From a virus: DNA of 20,420 nt. The notes below the pieces were generated by a model, which worked only from the letters and a program-made list of their open reading frames with translations, did not search any database and was not told the DNA's origin. The first letter of the stretch is position 1, and every line of letters starts with the position of its first letter. The translations under genes and the position numbers were made by a program. Positions 1,355-16,403 of this stretch are shown one piece after another. Location: positions 1 to 20,420 of IMG/VR virus record IMGVR_UViG_3300010150_000247; one strand, 5' to 3'.

Positions 1355-2602
1355 TTAAGTTAATCCTTCTACTTCGATAGCAGCAAATGAATAGGCAGGG
1401 CCTTCTAAGTTAATATCAAATCTACGATAAAACCCATATACAATAGTAGCGAGAGCTTCATCTTCAGAACCTATATAAACAAGAGGAGTAGACCTAAAAT
1501 TTGCAAGTGTGTTTTGAACAGTTCTAGCTTTTCCTGTTTCAAGCCTCACATCGTAGTCTACTAACTTAGCGAAGGCTCTTTGTGTGATAATAAAGTTACC
1601 AAAGGCATCGGTCTCTTTACGTGAGTAATCTTCAATACCCACTGAGGTTCCATAAGTTGTTAAGCCAAAGTTAGCTAGGAACCCAAATACTATTTGACCT
1701 ACTTTGGCGTTCTCTCCACTGTCTGCAGTAATAGTAGCTTCTACGGAGGAGTTAGGATACGGTGGAAAACCAGTAAATAAAGCTTCTGTCTTAACGCCTT
1801 GTTCAGCGAAGAAGTAAGTAAATAAATCTACAATCTCACTGTTATCCAACAAAGAGAAGTCCTGACTATATACTTCCCCATCCCCCTGTACAGTGATGTC
1901 GTTACCCATGTTAATCCCATGAGAAGTACAATGGTATTGTAAACCATCGGGGGCATCATTAGGAACTACAAAAGTAGTTACACTATCTGTACCTAATGTG
2001 CCTGTTGTAGTTACACCCGATGTCCAAGCTGTGCCGTCTGTCTCTCTTATAGCAAGCTGATGTCCTACGTTAGATCCATCACTTTGATTGAAGATGTAAG
2101 TGTTACCTCTACGGAATGTTACTGCAGGTCTAGAGTCAGAACCAAAGACAAATACATTTCCTGTACTTCCGTCATACCGTGTACCACTGGCAACAGTCAC
2201 AGTGTAAGTAGTATCAACTAAATCAGCGTCAGTAACGGTCACATTACAGGTTGTTCCGCTAAGACCAAACATAGACAAAGCTGTTATGTTAGAGTTAGCA
2301 TCATTAAACTGATATTGAATATTATCTAGTTTACTAACCTGCGCTGCAATCTTCTGATCAAAAGCTTTCCACCTGTTAGTAGCACTAAGCTCTAACCAGT
2401 TAGTACCATCATCTGTAGTCGGATCATTGCCTACATTACTTCCTACAAGGCTTTCATAGACTTTGTGTGTAGTCCCAATGACAATAACATTATCACCGTC
2501 TGCATAAGTAGTACCAGAAGCCCACTCACTATAGTCATTCTCAGCAACATTAGAGCTTGTAAGGATACTGTTGGTAACTGTAACTGGCTTGATAATATCC
2601 AT
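1355..2602 (-). CDS. Distal tail protein with CBM5/12-like and cupredoxin-like modules
   Basis: This 415-residue protein follows the tape measure gene with a one-base TAATG overlap, the place where distal tail or baseplate proteins sit. Residues 24-71 resemble a CBM5/12 module (YSEWASGTTYADGD, ending NWLEL). Residues about 118-240 look like a cupredoxin: RRGNTYIFNQSDGSNVGHQL, later TFVVPNDAPDGLQYHC, then SHGINM. The four usual type 1 copper ligands are in place: His181, Cys225, His228, Met232 (C-x2-H-x3-M). The remaining sequence (residues 1-20, 75-100 and 245-415), with aromatic segments such as LFTYFFAEQGV and GFYRRFDINLEG, appears to be the host protein into which the domains are set. I do not recognise a classical Dit or Tal fold. 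Virion location is inferred from neighbours. Confidence 0.82.
   Translation of the reverse strand: MDIIKPVTVTNSILTSSNVAENDYSEWASGTTYADGDNVIVIGTTHKVYESLVGSNVGNDPTTDDGTNWLELSATNRWKAFDQKIAAQVSKLDNIQYQFNDANSNITALSMFGLSGTTCNVTVTDADLVDTTYTVTVASGTRYDGSTGNVFVFGSDSRPAVTFRRGNTYIFNQSDGSNVGHQLAIRETDGTAWTSGVTTTGTLGTDSVTTFVVPNDAPDGLQYHCTSHGINMGNDITVQGDGEVYSQDFSLLDNSEIVDLFTYFFAEQGVKTEALFTGFPPYPNSSVEATITADSGENAKVGQIVFGFLANFGLTTYGTSVGIEDYSRKETDAFGNFIITQRAFAKLVDYDVRLETGKARTVQNTLANFRSTPLVYIGSEDEALATIVYGFYRRFDINLEGPAYSFAAIEVEGLT
1883..2251 (-). other. Cupredoxin-like domain inside the distal tail protein
   Basis: Residues about 118-240 of the 415-residue tail protein. The domain reads as Greek-key beta strands, with the pattern RPAVTFRRGNTYIF, GHQLAI, a GVTTTGTLGT loop, a TTFVVP strand and Y-H-C-x2-H-x3-M at the end. 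His181, Cys225, His228 and Met232 are the residues that bind type 1 copper in plastocyanin and amicyanin. I know related domains in structural proteins of marine phages, often with these ligands. Whether copper is really bound cannot be told from sequence. Confidence 0.7.
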
Positions 2603-5600
2603 TATGTTCTCTCTGCAGGTAGCCCTTCAGTATCCCACTGACGGTACAGGTCGTATGTACGTTTGGTATACTTATTATTGTTTATACCTAGTTGTCTCTG
2701 TTCGTTACGAAGTTCAGAAATCTCTTGCTTCATAGACTTAACTGCCTCTACAAGATCAGGGTTCTGTAGCATCTTACGAGTATCGTTATTACTCATAATA
2801 CGTGAAGCCCCTGTCATCTCAAGTTCTGGGCCACGCTCACCAACCATACGAACACCACCAGAGTGATATCCACCAAGCGCAAACTGTGCTGCTCTAGTAG
2901 AATTATCTAAGCTAACAGCTAGATTACCTACATTGGAAATGGCTTGCTGAATTTCTGCTCCAGTTTGCCCCGAAGTTTGTATGCCCAATTGACTAGCTGC
3001 ATCTAGAAGCTGACTAGCTCCACTTAGGTTAATATGGTCGTAGGTCTGTCCGTTTTTTGTATAATCTGATCCAACATCGTATTGCTCAAGTAACCCAACA
3101 CCACCAGTGTTTGCACTAGCTGCACCTGCTGCTGCACCACCTAACCCTGATTTAACGGATGCAGCGGCCTGTTTAAGCTCTAGGGTATTTATAGCATTTT
3201 CTACAGCTTTTATAGCCTCAACCATAGTGAGGTTGATTTCCTTGATACCTGCTAGTTCGTTATATTGTTTATCAAGTGCAAGTAGTTCAGACTGCAGATT
3301 ATCATCTAATTTAGTAAGCGACTCTTCATGTCTAATTTGAGCAGCATCTTTTTCTTCCTGCAGTAAAAGAAGTGCTTTTTCATCAGTCGTTAACTGAAGC
3401 TTTGCTTTTGTCTCAAGGTCGCGGATTACGTTTGTCTGTTTCTGGAAATCACGTTGATAATTTACAAAGTCTTCGTATAGATCTTGAGAAGGTTCAGCAA
3501 CAATCCTAAGAGCATCTTCAAGGGCTTGCTCATCCTCTATTCTGCCTGTACCACGGAGCTCTCTTAGATAAGATGTGGCAGTTTCCCTAGCCATAGAAAA
3601 TTGGTTCTGACTAGTGAAGCCCCGACCCCTCAAGGCACTTTCTAGGGCAGAGTATACACCTTGGCTCAAGGAAGCGACACGTTGAGCAGACTCTAGCTTT
3701 ACTTCAATGCCCTCTATAAGGCTATCAAAATTTGACTTTAATGATTCAACAGAATCAGCGTAGCCTTGTTGTAATGTGCGTTTCTCTCGCTCAATAACAG
3801 AAGCAAGGTTTGAGAATGCAATGTTTACAGCCCTCTGAGCATCTTCTACAGCATGAATAGCCTCTAGTAACCCACGATTGAGTTTATCTACAGAAGCCAG
3901 TTCTGACTCTCTTCTCATAGATAGAGCTTGTTCTTGATCACCGATAGTCTCAAGAAGTCTGATTTGTAGATTATATCTCTCGTTAGCAGCAGCCAACAGG
4001 GAGTTCACATCACTAAAGTGACCAGATAAGGAAGCAAACTCATCTCCCATCTTAGCAAGCTCTTGATTGATAGCTTGCATCTTTTCGTCATCGGTTAAAC
4101 CCTTGAGTGATAGTTCAAACTGGTAAGTGAAGTTCTCGAATAAACCTGCACCAATACCTAAAACTTTTGCCGCGTCAACAACGCTAGTCTGTATGGTGTT
4201 GATAGCTTCGATGATAGGATCAGAAATCTCTGCGCTTGCAGCTTCGTAAGCTGTAACTTTTGGTCCCTTAAGTATTCCAAATAGTCTACTACTTTGAGTG
4301 ACTTTAAATGTCTCTATAGCCGCATCAAAACCCTCAACAGTACCTCTTAGGCCAACATCTAATAACTTAGTTTTCTTAGTGAGTAGCCCTACAACAACAG
4401 CTACAGCAGCAATGGCAGGTATAGCAGCACCAAGTGTAAAACCACCGCCAAGACCACCGCCACCAAGCATACTGCCAAGCGCACTGAATGACCCACCCAT
4501 GCCAATACCACCTGCACCAAATACTGAACCAAAACCCCCCATAAGCCCAGTACCTGCCACACCTGCTGCACCTGTAGTACCTAAGAAAGCTCCTGCACCT
4601 CCTGCAAAAGCAGCACTTGTACCTGCTACAGTTCCTGCTCCACCCATACCCAGACCAATCATAATACGATTGTTGACCGCCGTAGCAATCATCTGTGCAA
4701 TCATGTTCGAGAAAGACCTAAGTATGTCTTTTACGAAGCCTTTGAAGTCTTTTAGGCCACGACCGATAAAGTCACCAAACGCATCTGATACACTTCCAAT
4801 AGCAGATACAAGTGGGTCTTCTAGTTCTTCCCTAAGTTTTTCTGCGGATTTCTTTGCTTCATCTTGCGCCCTATCAACTTCTTTTAGGCGATCTTGATAC
4901 ATTTTAGCTGCTTCTCCTATGGAATCCATATTCATAAAGATAGGAGATTCATTTAATATCATTTGACGTTCAGATTCACGAGCAAAAAACTTCCTTCGCT
5001 CTTTGGCAAAGAGGAGTCTCTGCCTCTCCTTTTCGACTATATCAGCTAACTCTTTTTTCTCCCTCTGCAAGACATCATATATCTTCATCTCTGCTTTTAA
5101 GAGATTCCCTTTGATACCTGCAGAAAGACGAGATTGCTGATAGGCGTCTCTAGCAAACTCAGCCGTTTCTTCTTGGAGTGCCGCGCTATCCTTGCCATGT
5201 TCAGCTTCTATACGGACTAAAGCAATCTTCTCTTTTAAATCCCGTACTTCGTCAGCGTGAGTATCTTTGATTTTTTGAGCAGCCTCTTGAATAGCTTTAT
5301 TCTCATCAACCATTTTTTCATAAATTGTTAGGCCACTCTTCAGGCTATTTATTATAGCCTCTTGTCTACCCTTTGCCGCTACATCTAATTTATCCTGTTC
5401 AACTTTGGCGTCAATAATATCATATTCGGTTTTAAGTCTATCTCTCAACCTCTCTGCAAGTGCCTCAGAAATACCTGCTGCCCTGATTTCAGTTTCTAAT
5501 TCTATTTCAGCTTGTCTACGAGCCTCATTTCTATATTTTATATGGTCTTGCCCAAACTTGTTTTCTATAGAAGCAAGAATATTAGAGCGTTCCATAGACT

Positions 5601-6465
5601 TGAGACGTTTAACGTATTCATTATTTATTAGTACTTGTAGGTCTTTTTGCTGACCTGTTGTTTTAAGAAGAAGATCATTCAGTACCAGTATGGTAGATTC
5701 AGCTTCTGCTCTATTTTTACCTGACCTATCACCTCCACCTGTATCTCTTAAAACCTCTAAGTACTCTTGCTGAAGCTCTTTAATAGCTTCTATTCTGTCT
5801 ATTAACGCTAATTGATCAGTGGTTACACTTTGAGCAAGCGCACGTTGTTCTTGCCTAAAGTCTTTAAGGGTTTTGGATAACCCAGTTACTTTATCTTTAG
5901 CCTCATCTGCCGCTTTTGCAGTTCTCATAAATGCAGCCGCTATAGCTGTTATAACAGGAAGCACAACACCAAGACCAGAAAACAAAGCAATTAGTGCAGT
6001 GCTTCTAGCAAGCATGGCAAAAGTACCAACAAGCTGTGTGGCCTGTTGACCAAGAGCGACCATAACATTTGTACCAGATTGAACCTGAACCGCAAAGTCA
6101 CCAATTTGATATCCAGACTGCTGCATTAGAACACCAAGTTGATTTGTCTTTCTGGCAGTCTGTTGTGCAGCTACGCCACTTGCGCCCACTGCTCCGCTTA
6201 AACCCCTCTGGGTGGCAATAAACTGTTGTGTAGCTTGGTTAGCCTTGTGTATGGACATAATCTGCTTACCATTTTCGTTGGTCAAAGCAGCCATTTGTCT
6301 TTTTGTGTTAAGAAGGGACTTTCTATAACGATCCTGAGTGATCTGACCTCTTTCGTAAGCCTTAACGGTCTTCAAAATCTCACGTTCAAACTTTGCAGTT
6401 TGAGTCAGGGCTTTATCTAACCCAATCTCTTTAACAACAAAATCTAACTGTAAAAGGTCAGCCAT
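2602..6465 (-). CDS. Tape measure protein
   Basis: At 1287 residues this is the longest gene, and it directly follows the tail chaperone pair. It fixes tail length and is threaded inside the tail tube. Residues 1-90 are charged and helical. Residues 110-150 hold a conserved tape-measure segment (LMQQSGYQIGDFAVQVQSG). A hydrophobic stretch lies at about 145-180, then long coiled-coil helices at 185-560 rich in Glu, Lys and Gln. A glycine/alanine-rich hydrophobic region spans about 590-695, probably the membrane-interacting part, followed by further coiled coil. Near 1200-1230 is GGVRMVGERGPELEMTG, a motif common near the C-terminus of tape measures. At about 0.15 nm per residue the tail would be near 190 nm long, which is an estimate. 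The start overlaps the end of the frameshifted chaperone by 8 bases. Confidence 0.95.
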   Translation of the reverse strand: MADLLQLDFVVKEIGLDKALTQTAKFEREILKTVKAYERGQITQDRYRKSLLNTKRQMAALTNENGKQIMSIHKANQATQQFIATQRGLSGAVGASGVAAQQTARKTNQLGVLMQQSGYQIGDFAVQVQSGTNVMVALGQQATQLVGTFAMLARSTALIALFSGLGVVLPVITAIAAAFMRTAKAADEAKDKVTGLSKTLKDFRQEQRALAQSVTTDQLALIDRIEAIKELQQEYLEVLRDTGGGDRSGKNRAEAESTILVLNDLLLKTTGQQKDLQVLINNEYVKRLKSMERSNILASIENKFGQDHIKYRNEARRQAEIELETEIRAAGISEALAERLRDRLKTEYDIIDAKVEQDKLDVAAKGRQEAIINSLKSGLTIYEKMVDENKAIQEAAQKIKDTHADEVRDLKEKIALVRIEAEHGKDSAALQEETAEFARDAYQQSRLSAGIKGNLLKAEMKIYDVLQREKKELADIVEKERQRLLFAKERRKFFARESERQMILNESPIFMNMDSIGEAAKMYQDRLKEVDRAQDEAKKSAEKLREELEDPLVSAIGSVSDAFGDFIGRGLKDFKGFVKDILRSFSNMIAQMIATAVNNRIMIGLGMGGAGTVAGTSAAFAGGAGAFLGTTGAAGVAGTGLMGGFGSVFGAGGIGMGGSFSALGSMLGGGGLGGGFTLGAAIPAIAAVAVVVGLLTKKTKLLDVGLRGTVEGFDAAIETFKVTQSSRLFGILKGPKVTAYEAASAEISDPIIEAINTIQTSVVDAAKVLGIGAGLFENFTYQFELSLKGLTDDEKMQAINQELAKMGDEFASLSGHFSDVNSLLAAANERYNLQIRLLETIGDQEQALSMRRESELASVDKLNRGLLEAIHAVEDAQRAVNIAFSNLASVIEREKRTLQQGYADSVESLKSNFDSLIEGIEVKLESAQRVASLSQGVYSALESALRGRGFTSQNQFSMARETATSYLRELRGTGRIEDEQALEDALRIVAEPSQDLYEDFVNYQRDFQKQTNVIRDLETKAKLQLTTDEKALLLLQEEKDAAQIRHEESLTKLDDNLQSELLALDKQYNELAGIKEINLTMVEAIKAVENAINTLELKQAAASVKSGLGGAAAGAASANTGGVGLLEQYDVGSDYTKNGQTYDHINLSGASQLLDAASQLGIQTSGQTGAEIQQAISNVGNLAVSLDNSTRAAQFALGGYHSGGVRMVGERGPELEMTGASRIMSNNDTRKMLQNPDLVEAVKSMKQEISELRNEQRQLGINNNKYTKRTYDLYRQWDTEGLPAERT

Positions 6466-12545: not shown

Positions 12546-13923
12546 CTAATCTCTCCTTAATTGCTCGACCGCCAATGCTGAAGGCCGCAAGTTCACCAGA
12601 TTTGACCATGTTCCAGACTTTATCATCGTAGACTTTATAAGCTACAATCCACCCTTCACGATCACTCTGTATGCCAAGGCTATCACCAATCTCTTTGGTA
12701 ATTGGTAAGGAATGAATAACCATCCCTGTTTGTTCGCCTTTGTGCATTGTTTTACCGACACGTACATTCTCCATGAAATCATTCACGGCTTTAACCAACG
12801 TGTCTGGCTCGATTATGTCACCCTGACGGTCAACTACTCGTTCACCTTTCTCAGTAATGACTGAGGCCCATCCGTAGACTATACGCTGTTCATCGTCAGT
12901 CTTTAGGATCTGGCCTTCGATATCTTTTGTTAAATCAGTCACTGATCTACCCTTCTCCCACATACGGCAAGACCAATAACGAGCAGAAGTCTTATCTGAT
13001 GCGGTATCGCAAGAATGTCTGCTACGGAAGTTAGATCTAGCCTTGGGGTCATCTCTACGTATTTCCATATTAGGATCACCAAAAGTAACTTTCTTGGTTT
13101 TGTCTCCGTCCTTTACATAAACTCCAAACTTCTTACTTGAGCCTTTAGGGAGTCTGAAGGGCTTGTTTAGTGGCTTATCTGCCTTATCAACTTGCTCCTG
13201 CGTTGGTAAATCGCCTCCATCCCATACTTGTGACTTCCTTGTACTAAGAGGATGTTTAGAAGGTAGGAGATCAGTATCATGCTTACCACTACGGAAGCGA
13301 CCTGTACGAATGGTGCGTAAGAAATTGTTGACACGAGCCATAGCCCATTGTTCGGGAGATGAGACGTTAGGACGAACCGATGATGGGTTTGTCTTATATG
13401 CACCTACACCTCTATTATAAACCTGACGCAGCATAGAGGTAGTTACCTTACCTTTGCCACCATTTTTTTCATTGTGCTCTTTTACTTTAGATGCAAGAGT
13501 ACTAGTTTCTACTTTAGTTACTTCTTGAATAACTACAGATAAGATACGAGCCAAGAGATCATCTTCACTCTCTTCTTGCTCCTGTGGCATGTGTTTAATA
13601 CCTGCAAGCTCTTTGTGGTAGTTGAGGTATTCTTCATGCGTTCTTGATGGCATGTAATAGATATTAGCACCAACTTCATGAGTATGGATTTCACCATCAA
13701 AACCTAACATAAAAGATCTGCTACGAGCTTCTGAGGGGCTAGTGAAAATATCGTCATCCATTTGACGTTTCTTCACTGCAGCCCAAGCTGACTGAAAGGC
13801 TCTCTGTTCGTTTTTACTATCTTCTAACACTGAATTAAACACTCTTCTAAATTGTGTATGCTTGTCTTCTGGTACAGTTTGTCTTACTGCTTTAGGAAGC
13901 TCTGCGTTACTAGAATATGGCAT
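12532..13923 (-). CDS. ChaB domain / XkdF-like prohead protease fusion
   Basis: The 463-residue protein combines several modules. Residues 1-52 are a ChaB-like domain (PYSSNAELPKAVRQTVPED, then FNSVL and AFQSAWAAVKKR). Residues about 150-220 form a conserved phage block (DUF5824-like; LRQVYNRGVGAYKTNP, QWAMARVNNFLR). Residues about 255-315 form a basic block ending in RYWSCRMW with conserved cysteines. Residues about 335-455 are XkdF-like (IVYGWASVITEKGERVVDRQ). The likely catalytic residues are His394 (MHKG) and Ser449 (FSIGG), as in HK97-type prohead proteases. It would process scaffold and possibly capsid proteins. It starts in a TAATG overlap and ends inside the scaffold gene, soon after the catalytic serine. 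Confidence 0.85.
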   Translation of the reverse strand: MPYSSNAELPKAVRQTVPEDKHTQFRRVFNSVLEDSKNEQRAFQSAWAAVKKRQMDDDIFTSPSEARSRSFMLGFDGEIHTHEVGANIYYMPSRTHEEYLNYHKELAGIKHMPQEQEESEDDLLARILSVVIQEVTKVETSTLASKVKEHNEKNGGKGKVTTSMLRQVYNRGVGAYKTNPSSVRPNVSSPEQWAMARVNNFLRTIRTGRFRSGKHDTDLLPSKHPLSTRKSQVWDGGDLPTQEQVDKADKPLNKPFRLPKGSSKKFGVYVKDGDKTKKVTFGDPNMEIRRDDPKARSNFRSRHSCDTASDKTSARYWSCRMWEKGRSVTDLTKDIEGQILKTDDEQRIVYGWASVITEKGERVVDRQGDIIEPDTLVKAVNDFMENVRVGKTMHKGEQTGMVIHSLPITKEIGDSLGIQSDREGWIVAYKVYDDKVWNMVKSGELAAFSIGGRAIKERLDEPS

Positions 13924-15302
13924 TATAAAACCTTGGCTATATAACCTTTAAAAATACCGAATACGACTAGGTTATTAGTTTCTGTCTCACATCGAATACG
14001 GATATCAGAATTTTTGGGTACAATCATAGGTGGATCTAGAGGTATTTCTGTTGCTCCTCCATTTGTAGATGCTGTAAAGCAACCTACTTGTCTAAATACT
14101 TTACCTACCTGTTTAATCTCAGGATAAAAGTCTACAGAACCTGATTGTTTTGCGCTAACCGCCCCATAGAAACTTGTCATAATAAAGTAATCATTTTTAC
14201 TGAAGGTAGTTGCAGCTTTGAAGGACTGTTGAAATCCTTGCGGAATATCAATGTGTATCTTGGTTGCGTCTGTAGGAACCCCACCTGATAAGGCAGTATT
14301 TTCGTATGCTACAACACGGCCAACGAGTTCTGTGCTATCGCTGTTGTAGATACGAGATACACGAGCTAGGTCTGTATTGAGAGCAACCGTGTTCTGACCA
14401 TTTAGTGTCGCAGTCTGACTAACGAAAGTAAACTCACTGTTACTTAGTGTGTGACCTTCAATCGTAACCTCTTGGGTGTCAGATGCAGAGGAGGAGGATA
14501 CGTGGGAAATAGAGTTTGTAGAAAGGTAAGTCTCATTTCCACCAACACTCCAAACCGTTTCTAAACTACCTGTGCCTAACTGTGCTGAACGACCAAACTT
14601 AACAAGAGACTTTGCCTTACGGTCAATAGAGACTTTGTCCCCATAAGTCTGTTGTATTTCACGCTCACCTTGGACAAGCCTTCCGTCAGGAACTTCATAA
14701 GCTCTGCGTGTCCAACCACCAATCATTTGTTGTATTTCCTGTGTTTCTTGGGCGAGGATTGCATCTGGGTCAGAAGCGGCATCTATGTCAGGCGTTAGAG
14801 TGACAATGGAATTTGGTGTTAAGTCGTGGACTTGTGTTAAGCTTGTGTTATCTAAGCTTGGAGTGCCACTTAGTAAATTATCTGCAGTTAACGGAGTAAT
14901 CTCAGTAAGTGTAGTATTAGCTACTAGAGATGTTCCTGCAGTAAATCCATCGGGTGTCAGGCTATGGATTTGGGTAATAGCTAAAGTAGCTAAAACAGGA
15001 TTGCCAGATTCAAAGCTGACTGTTCCTAGATCGTGATTTTGTACTAGTGTGACACTAGGAACTGAGGGGGGATCTGTTTCTAGGGCGGTAGTCGAGAAGG
15101 TTTCTGCTTCTGACATTGCCAAGTCAGATACAACAGAATTACCTGTAAGAATATCTGACGGTGTTAAGTCGTGGACTTGGGTAAGTGAAGCGTTAGCTAC
15201 TGAGGGAGCTTGAGCAGCAATGTTACTTGCCGTTAGCTCTATGTTGACTATGCCCCCATCATCGCCTAAAGGACTAGAGGCTAATGGGGAGAAGCCTACC
15301 AT
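13923..15302 (-). CDS. Repeat-containing virion surface protein (decoration or fibre)
   Basis: The 459-residue protein has two parts. Residues 20 to about 180 are some seven imperfect repeats of exactly 23 residues with the consensus (D)LTPxxIxxGxPxVxNTxLTQVH. The rest is a beta-rich C-terminal domain (RRAYEVPDGRLVQGEREIQQ at 205-225, ending LVVFGIFKGYIAKVL). I know both elements separately from marine phage virion proteins of unassigned function. The position between portal and protease suggests a head-associated appendage rather than a tail fibre, but this is inference. Its start is preceded by the same sequence that precedes the gene at 839, as part of a duplicated segment. The ribosome site is AGGTAAATAAATG, moderate. 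Confidence 0.82.
   Translation of the reverse strand: MVGFSPLASSPLGDDGGIVNIELTASNIAAQAPSVANASLTQVHDLTPSDILTGNSVVSDLAMSEAETFSTTALETDPPSVPSVTLVQNHDLGTVSFESGNPVLATLAITQIHSLTPDGFTAGTSLVANTTLTEITPLTADNLLSGTPSLDNTSLTQVHDLTPNSIVTLTPDIDAASDPDAILAQETQEIQQMIGGWTRRAYEVPDGRLVQGEREIQQTYGDKVSIDRKAKSLVKFGRSAQLGTGSLETVWSVGGNETYLSTNSISHVSSSSASDTQEVTIEGHTLSNSEFTFVSQTATLNGQNTVALNTDLARVSRIYNSDSTELVGRVVAYENTALSGGVPTDATKIHIDIPQGFQQSFKAATTFSKNDYFIMTSFYGAVSAKQSGSVDFYPEIKQVGKVFRQVGCFTASTNGGATEIPLDPPMIVPKNSDIRIRCETETNNLVVFGIFKGYIAKVL
14765..15245 (-). repeat. Seven tandem 69-base (23-residue) repeats
   Basis: The coding repeats keep a strict 23-residue register. A 20-base stretch, ggtgttaagtcgtggacttg on the plus strand, is identical at 14815-14834 and 15160-15179. 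These copies are 345 bases apart, exactly five units of 69. Most other units have diverged at DNA level but keep Leu-Thr-Pro and the Leu-Thr-Gln-x-His ends. Confidence 0.8.
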
Positions 15303-15313
15303 TTATTTACCTG

Positions 15314-15559
15314 CTATCCAAATACTATGGACATAGCTATTGATTTACCTGTGGATGCCTTTGTATCCAACTGAGTTTGAATTGGGCTTGTTACATTAGT
15401 AACGTAGTTCAACTCAGTCGATGTAGCTGTAATACTTAAATCTGATAGGCTAGATACAGTACCAATACCGCCCCTTGGTAAAGTTACATCAGCATTACCT
15501 GATCCGTCTTCAGCGGTTATTGTGATCGAACCTGACGCAGTATTTAATTTCAATCCCAT
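15314..15559 (-). CDS. Short fibre-like protein with C-terminal GKSIAMSIVFG tag
   Basis: The 81-residue protein has three parts. The first is a beta opening, GLKLNTASGSITITAEDGSG, followed by ADVTLPRGG, as in the heads of many cyanophage and marine phage fibre proteins. The second is LSDLSITATSTELNYVTNV, with SPIQTQLDTKA, a fibre helix motif found before trimeric shafts. The third is STGKSIAMSIVFG, identical in its last 13 residues to the end of the tail protein at 853-1353. It looks like a fibre with the shaft missing, a minimal head-plus-tag. Ribosome site CTAAGGTACACAATG. Function unknown; perhaps an adaptor or minor virion protein. Confidence 0.78.
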   Translation of the reverse strand: MGLKLNTASGSITITAEDGSGNADVTLPRGGIGTVSSLSDLSITATSTELNYVTNVTSPIQTQLDTKASTGKSIAMSIVFG

Positions 15560-15567
15560 TGTGTACC

Positions 15568-16023
15568 TTAGAGTGGACGTTTTTCTGAGTAGGTGTTAAC
15601 TACTAACTGTGCATTAACTGGTATCGTCAGGGTAGCTGCAGAATCTATAGTAGTTCCACTACCTGTTTCATATTCTACACTAGCATCTAGAGTCTGATCT
15701 ACATTTATTGTAGTTGTAGTGTACGAGTAAACTTCATTAACAGTGGCAGATACAAAAACTTTTGCATCGCCTGAGAGAGTTATAGCTGATCCACTATTAT
15801 TGGATTCTAGTGCTCCTCTGGTCAGTGTTGTCCCACTGGCAGTATAGATACCCCTGCCAATCTCAAAGTTGTCTCCGTCCTCTATGACGTAAGAAAGAAC
15901 ATCACCATCTGTCACACCTGCATCAGCGAAACTTTGGTATCCTGTCTCAGCAGAACCTAGAGTTATAGTACCTGTCCCAGTTGTGCTAGTGGACATCTTG
16001 GCCCTGTTAACGAGTTTGACCAT
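15568..16023 (-). CDS. Beta-rich virion protein, marine-phage family of unknown function
   Basis: The 151-residue protein begins MVKLVNRAKMSTSTTGTGTI, followed by TLGSAETGYQSFADAGVTDG, then YVIEDGDNFEIGRGIYT and TLTRGALESNNSGSAI. I know this pattern from many tailed-phage virion proteins, where the N-terminal 100 residues are strongly conserved and the C-terminal part varies. Here the C-terminal part (TLTIPVNAQLVVNTYSEKRP) resembles a small beta-strand cap. Ribosome site AAGGTGG is strong. Virion location is inferred from the operon and resemblance. Confidence 0.8.
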   Translation of the reverse strand: MVKLVNRAKMSTSTTGTGTITLGSAETGYQSFADAGVTDGDVLSYVIEDGDNFEIGRGIYTASGTTLTRGALESNNSGSAITLSGDAKVFVSATVNEVYSYTTTTINVDQTLDASVEYETGSGTTIDSAATLTIPVNAQLVVNTYSEKRPL

Positions 16024-16031
16024 AAGCCACC

Positions 16032-16403
16032 TTATGCAGGATCAGGAATACCGATTGTGAATGAAGCTAGAGAGAATGTATTACCCGATGTTACGCTCTG
16101 AGAGGCGCTGAGAGAGCCTGTGGCAAGCAAACGAGAGTTTGAGGTGTCAACTATCGCATAATGCGTTGCAGTGCCTGTGCCGCTTACAGAGCCGTCTGAG
16201 ATAGCAGCAACAACAACTTCCCTTCCTCCACCGCTACGATCAGTAGGGCTAGCAATGGAAAGTGACGTAGAATTACCTAAAGTATGGGCGCTAGTCGCTT
16301 CAGCGTAGGTTGTAGACTCTTGTGACGTAATATCTATGCGGTTTGCCTCAGTATCTAGTACTGTAAGGCCATTATCAAACACTCTATCTGCTAAACTAGC
16401 CAT
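16032..16403 (-). CDS. Beta-rich virion protein next to portal, unknown function
   Basis: The 123-residue protein reads MASLADRVFDNGLTVLDTEA and then NRIDITSQESTTYAEATSAH, with a Ser/Thr-rich strand region and GTGTATHYAIVDTSNSRLLA near residue 80. Closely similar proteins appear beside other fibre-like genes in many marine phages; none that I know has an assigned function. It overlaps the portal gene end by 8 bases, so translation is likely coupled to it. No signal peptide, membrane segment or catalytic motif is visible. Being the first of four such genes here, it may belong to one appendage or decoration complex. Confidence 0.8.
   Translation of the reverse strand: MASLADRVFDNGLTVLDTEANRIDITSQESTTYAEATSAHTLGNSTSLSIASPTDRSGGGREVVVAAISDGSVSGTGTATHYAIVDTSNSRLLATGSLSASQSVTSGNTFSLASFTIGIPDPA

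Follow-up and report, generated by a model that had tools for sequence, protein, structure and literature searches.

Why a phage tail protein should carry a domain resembling a small copper protein is the question raised by this locus, which lies in a virus record of 20,420 bases that was analysed whole and is here called the window. We confirmed a 415-residue open reading frame at 1355-2602 on the minus strand, directly after the tape measure gene, and located His181, Cys225, His228 and Met232 exactly where the original prediction had placed them, in the order and spacing of type 1 copper ligands. The window's remaining genes have matches to families of terminase, portal, capsid, tail tube and tape measure proteins. 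Roseobacter phage CRP-6 has a terminase 69% identical to the one encoded here, which makes a marine alphaproteobacterial host plausible for this phage. The features that concern us are as follows.

2602-6465, minus strand: tape measure protein, immediately upstream (Tape_meas_lam_C, 25.9 bits, cut-off 23)
1355-2602, minus strand: whole gene, 415 residues, overlapping the end of the tape measure gene; candidate gpM-like distal tail protein (Dit) with a cupredoxin insert, the core model resembling lambda and T1 tail tip chains
2222-2602, minus strand: N-terminal part, residues 1-127, with residues just past the insert probably a galactose-binding-like (F5/8-C / CBM32-like) module, from Foldseek, at a presumed boundary
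1883-2221, minus strand: predicted cupredoxin insert, residues 128-240 (113 residues), missing from 50 relatives; model pLDDT 94; dN/dS 0.03-0.10
1358-1882, minus strand: C-terminal part, residues 241-415, presumably with the gpM-like ring domain, from phrog_6278 and the gpM match of the core model
2060-2062, minus strand: His181, putative first ligand, just before a strand (sequence, model, covariation)
1928-1930, minus strand: Cys225, putative ligand, at a strand end (sequence, model, covariation)
1919-1921, minus strand: His228, putative ligand, C-x2-H (sequence, model, covariation)
1907-1909, minus strand: Met232, putative axial ligand, H-x3-M (sequence, model, covariation)

We set the borders of the insert (residues 128-240, nucleotides 2221-1883) by alignment with insert-free relatives. 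The span first proposed for it, 1883-2251, was right at the 3' edge, and its 5' edge lay 10 residues too early. In the model of one insert-free relative, L006, the insertion point is the loop of a beta-hairpin formed by core strands 118-125 and 129-137. We found the insert only in the window protein and in L001-L003; it is missing from all 50 other near-full-length relatives found, the insert-free proteins being about 288-329 residues long. L004, L005 and L006 share 87-91% identity with the window protein, yet run directly from 'VTVTDAT/ST' into 'DGEVY' at the insertion site. Since the insert is absent from all 50 of these relatives, some of them about 90% identical elsewhere, it is an accessory module that is unnecessary for core tail function. 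This argues against a metal-dependent stability of the tail tip, which had been suggested, as a general role, and for an accessory one; an essential tail-tip part is rejected on the same grounds. Within the window's own lineage the dN/dS of the insert is 0.03-0.10, the same as in the rest of the gene, indicating that it is under purifying selection and is not a decaying relic. A disulphide role for Cys225 was likewise rejected, as the sole other cysteine (119) is replaced by Val in L003.

On the evidence of its model, the most fitting interpretation of the protein core is a distal tail protein of the gpM type that carries an additional galactose-binding-like part. In lambda, the tape measure gene H is followed by M, and in the isolates DMCA, Yong-M4-211 and CGphi29 a relative of 300-305 residues, insert-free by its length, stands directly after the tape measure gene. 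The family phrog_6278 matches residues 240-414 of the tail protein (E 1.9e-63). The modelled L006 protein (pLDDT 86.7, pTM 0.81) matches the lambda tail tip chain 8iyk_E (109 residues, by that length presumably gpM; TM-score by target 0.71), the T1 tail tip chain 9l9p_H (TM-score by target 0.61), and small tail-tip or tube-like domains of the diffocin and Mu baseplates, and in a second class of Foldseek matches F5/8 type C, CBM32 and chitosan-binding modules (TM-score by target about 0.5), the E-values of these structure matches being only near 1e-3. With E-values of this order, it is fold, size and gene order taken together that lead us to the gpM-type reading. In lambda, gpM is a 109-residue distal tail protein that forms a hexameric ring between tube and tip (PMC10721106).

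Some separate observations concern the surrounding genes. The gene after the Dit-like gene has, at 862-1095 on the minus strand, a W..GT.Y..GD.V...VY module in common with residues 8-86 of the Dit-like protein (E 7e-5). Two small window proteins, encoded at 853-1353 and at 15314-15559 (both minus strand), share the 12-residue C-terminus TGKSIAMSIVFG, possibly a fibre trimerisation or attachment tag; they are otherwise different and far apart in gene order, and similar C-ends are present in L002, L025 and L170. Several fibre-like or low-similarity genes lie at 13923-16403 (minus strand) between the portal and capsid genes, and CRP-6 likewise has putative tail fibre genes between its portal and capsid genes.

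The insert itself was modelled with AlphaFold2 from a 43-sequence alignment at high confidence (pLDDT 94, pTM 0.84), and is predicted to adopt the Greek-key beta-sandwich fold of cupredoxins, in which the first His precedes one strand and the Cys closes the next-to-last strand. Copper nitrite reductases and multicopper oxidases come first among its PDB matches (probability 1.00), with a TM-score by query of about 0.5 and an rmsd of about 5 A to solved copper proteins; among predicted viral structures, cyanophage tail-fibre and virion proteins match at a TM-score of about 0.8. A profile of the family retrieves a copper nitrite reductase first from the PDB (E 0.0014), and more weakly plastocyanins, a laccase and a pseudoazurin, alongside antibody chains. 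The Pfam family PF00127 (Copper-bind) is matched by six of the 43 domain relatives at E <= 1, with a best value of 5.6e-5; the window copy gave no match to PF00127, and a direct search of the window protein against Pfam and PDB sequences found no copper protein.

The connection to cellular proteins runs through a relative. L154, a copy from a phage giant protein, is 41% identical over 112 residues to L248, an exported Prochlorococcus protein formed by a cupredoxin alone, which scores above the PF00127 cut-off at 33.1 bits, and the ligands of the two are aligned. This bridge, with the PF00127 matches among relatives, makes homology of the phage family to cellular cupredoxins well supported, and by extension probably that of the window copy. 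Because the model is confident, its PDB matches are copper proteins, relatives match PF00127 and the ligands covary, we do not regard the cupredoxin resemblance first noticed here as a product of chance. Capture of a host plastocyanin gene is not supported, the nearest sequences to the window copy being other phage domains and host plastocyanin being remote. The resemblance of L248 to a phage copy may separately mark gene exchange between phages and hosts.

We investigated the metal site in 163 distinct domain copies from viral loci. The His-Cys-His set is complete in 115 of these and the site is lost in 48 (29%); 19 copies keep one of the three residues (Cys alone in nine, the first His alone in ten) and 29 keep none. 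Not one keeps exactly two, against about 69 copies expected under independent loss at the same frequencies (not corrected for relatedness). Met accompanies the complete set in 113 of 115 copies, all four ligands thus being retained in 113/163 despite high overall divergence, and the two exceptions have Gln (L136) and Leu (L132), which are known axial residues of type 1 copper proteins. In a background-corrected covariation analysis of 98 non-redundant copies, the ligand pairs ranked 1 (Cys-His2), 3 (His2-Met), 4 (His1-His2), 6 (His1-Cys), 12 (Cys-Met) and 251 (His1-Met) among 5253 column pairs. With the ligand columns left out of tree building, we counted only six to nine changes per ligand; every or almost every independent starred pair showed Cys and the second His changing in the same direction, events too few for significance.

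The replacement of all four ligands can be seen between close relatives. Over the 103 other positions of the domain, L146 and L143 share 92% identity with L109, from which they differ at each ligand (H to N, C to S, H to T and M to F).

L146, 2962-4080, and L143, 467-1591: site-less twins; the intact counterpart is L109, 4989-6098 (92% identical domains)

Homologues routinely lacking one or more of the four residues were to have refuted the original prediction; the outcome is mostly in its favour, given the missing two-of-three class and the top-ranked pairs, but 48 copies have kept the scaffold and lost the site. To judge from the alignments, the four residues behave as one unit under selection, as expected of a metal site, which leaves the identity of the metal unspecified. 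Taking sequence and model together, a real metal site in the domain is probable, with copper as the likeliest metal and zinc as a possible one.

Among cultured phages the family was retrieved in 195 and 234 records with two different queries (overlapping sets), and these matches are nearly all marine, from phages of Synechococcus, Prochlorococcus, Pelagibacter and Methylophilales. The carriers include gp9-like baseplate connectors, baseplate wedge proteins, tail fibres and a tail sheath stabilizer fusion, and the occurrence of related domains in marine phage structural proteins, as claimed at the outset, is therefore confirmed for baseplate, fibre and virion proteins. Giant proteins of about 3000 residues in large marine phages (L124, L130, L136-L138, L141, L142, L147, L154 and L155) have fixed positions for six or seven cupredoxin-like copies, and certain of these positions always hold the metal site while others never do. 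Contigs catalogued as marine Bacteroidetes and Prochlorococcus likewise encode giant proteins with the domain, one of these proteins starting with an apparent signal peptide (by eye), and two bacterial-filed contigs, L240 and L241, each have one intact and one site-less copy. Some of these contigs may be viral; a phage-only family is rejected in view of the marine bacterial giant proteins. The common denominator of the family is a mobile module in surface-exposed or virion proteins.

Compared with plastocyanin and azurin (PF00127), amicyanin and other type 1 cupredoxins, the phage domain has the same predicted fold and the same ligand order, His...Cys-x2-His-x(2,3)-Met, with an aromatic residue before the Cys in both groups and the ligands superposed in the profile alignment. 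The Cys-x2-His-x3-Met loop of the window copy is intermediate between those of amicyanin (x2) and plastocyanin (x4). In contrast to these cellular proteins, the phage domain has no signal peptide, lies inside a virion protein and has a copper site that is putative. Members of the same family are found in the virion proteins of cyanophages, such as the gp9-like baseplate connector of ACG-2014d, a virion protein of S-TIM5, the tail fibre-like Q58M60 of P-SSM2 and a tail fibre of Melnitz-3, reaching 42% identity with the window copy and with ligands intact in five of six named isolates and in one of two copies in the sixth (P-RSM4). These modules sit in T4-like baseplate and fibre proteins, whereas that of the window is an insert in a probable siphophage distal tail protein, and their carriers are annotated as hypothetical or structural, never as metal proteins.

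Two further systems invite comparison. The evolved Dit of skunaviruses has carbohydrate-binding inserts that promote adsorption (PMC10688798), and like the window protein has an internal domain insert that is present or absent among close relatives. The insert here is instead a predicted cupredoxin with an intact type 1 site, in a different phage group, and the window protein would resemble an evolved Dit in layout and fall outside that class as defined by insert type. Exposed metal sites at the tail tip or fibre are likewise known from the HxH iron sites of T4 gp37 and R22Y (PMC11705849) and the iron-sulphur cluster of lambda gpL (PMC10721106), but in other folds, with other ligands and with iron, where the present site is type 1 copper-like. 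Each component is of a known kind, and their combination appears, provisionally, to be new. The statement that a copper function in virions is undescribed agrees with the open-access literature searched, in which we found no paper that describes such a function or a cupredoxin domain in a phage virion (subscription journals and preprints were outside its scope).

Starting from the gene, its predicted fold, the ligands, the insertion, the selection and the coordinated loss documented above, we give a probability of about 55% to a marine siphophage Dit of the lambda gpM type onto which a cupredoxin has been grafted as an outward accessory host-contact module stabilised by metal. As in lambda, six copies of the core would form a hexameric ring in the virion, joining the tail tube and the tip, and the grafts, set in a surface hairpin, would project outward from it; contact with the host is proposed by analogy with the evolved Dit. 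The domain would fold in the cytoplasm without a signal peptide, and since this is missing, copper (or zinc) may be acquired either there or, more likely, in sea water after lysis. Cytoplasmic zinc would be a serious alternative metal, a possibility familiar from azurin expressed in E. coli. Once bound, the metal would link the Cys-His-Met loop to the strand of the first His, and so rigidify the exposed end of the domain. A more sweeping proposal is possible, although tentative: marine phage virions may represent a large unrecognised class of type 1 copper metalloparticles, sharing a mobile cupredoxin module with marine bacterial surface proteins, which would be loaded with copper after lysis and whose site would aid host attachment.

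Counting against a metal-stabilised module, the 48 copies without a site persist, and in the giant proteins they do so at fixed positions alongside intact ones, as would be expected if the insert were a stable beta-sandwich for display only, its ligands kept by descent or packing and no metal bound in the virion. Phages do employ Ig-like and carbohydrate-binding domains as metal-free display modules. Set against this, the ligands are retained in most of the divergent copies and change together, and packing alone is insufficient to explain how four residues, about 50 alignment columns apart, came to be replaced together in a pair otherwise 92% identical; we therefore consider a pure scaffold rather unlikely.

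The remaining alternatives accept the metal site and give it another use. In cellular proteins the same set of ligands makes type 1 copper redox-active, and one might imagine electron transfer or a redox sensor that sets off the opening of the tail; this is very improbable, as the close family can do without the insert, ejection works in relatives that lack it, and no partner redox centre is seen in the window. Alternatively, the bound copper or the apo site could dock on a host metal-uptake or copper protein, as a copper counterpart of the Trojan or Ferrojan Horse proposed for iron and phage tail fibres. The mainly marine distribution of the family would suit such a lure, as would the HxH iron-binding motifs of T4 and marine phage tail fibres (PMC11705849) and the placement of the gpL cluster of lambda on the outer surface (PMC10721106). 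It has no known host receptor, however, and the domains also occur in proteins with other main functions, leaving it a doubtful reading.

So far iron is the only metal to have been considered in phage tails. With a conserved type 1 copper-like site in hundreds of records of marine phages, copper (or zinc) would become part of phage attachment and trace-metal chemistry. The family offers a natural experiment, with near-identical domains that have or lack the site and near-identical tail proteins that have or lack the domain, and the use of copper by virions is directly testable on cultured cyanophages.
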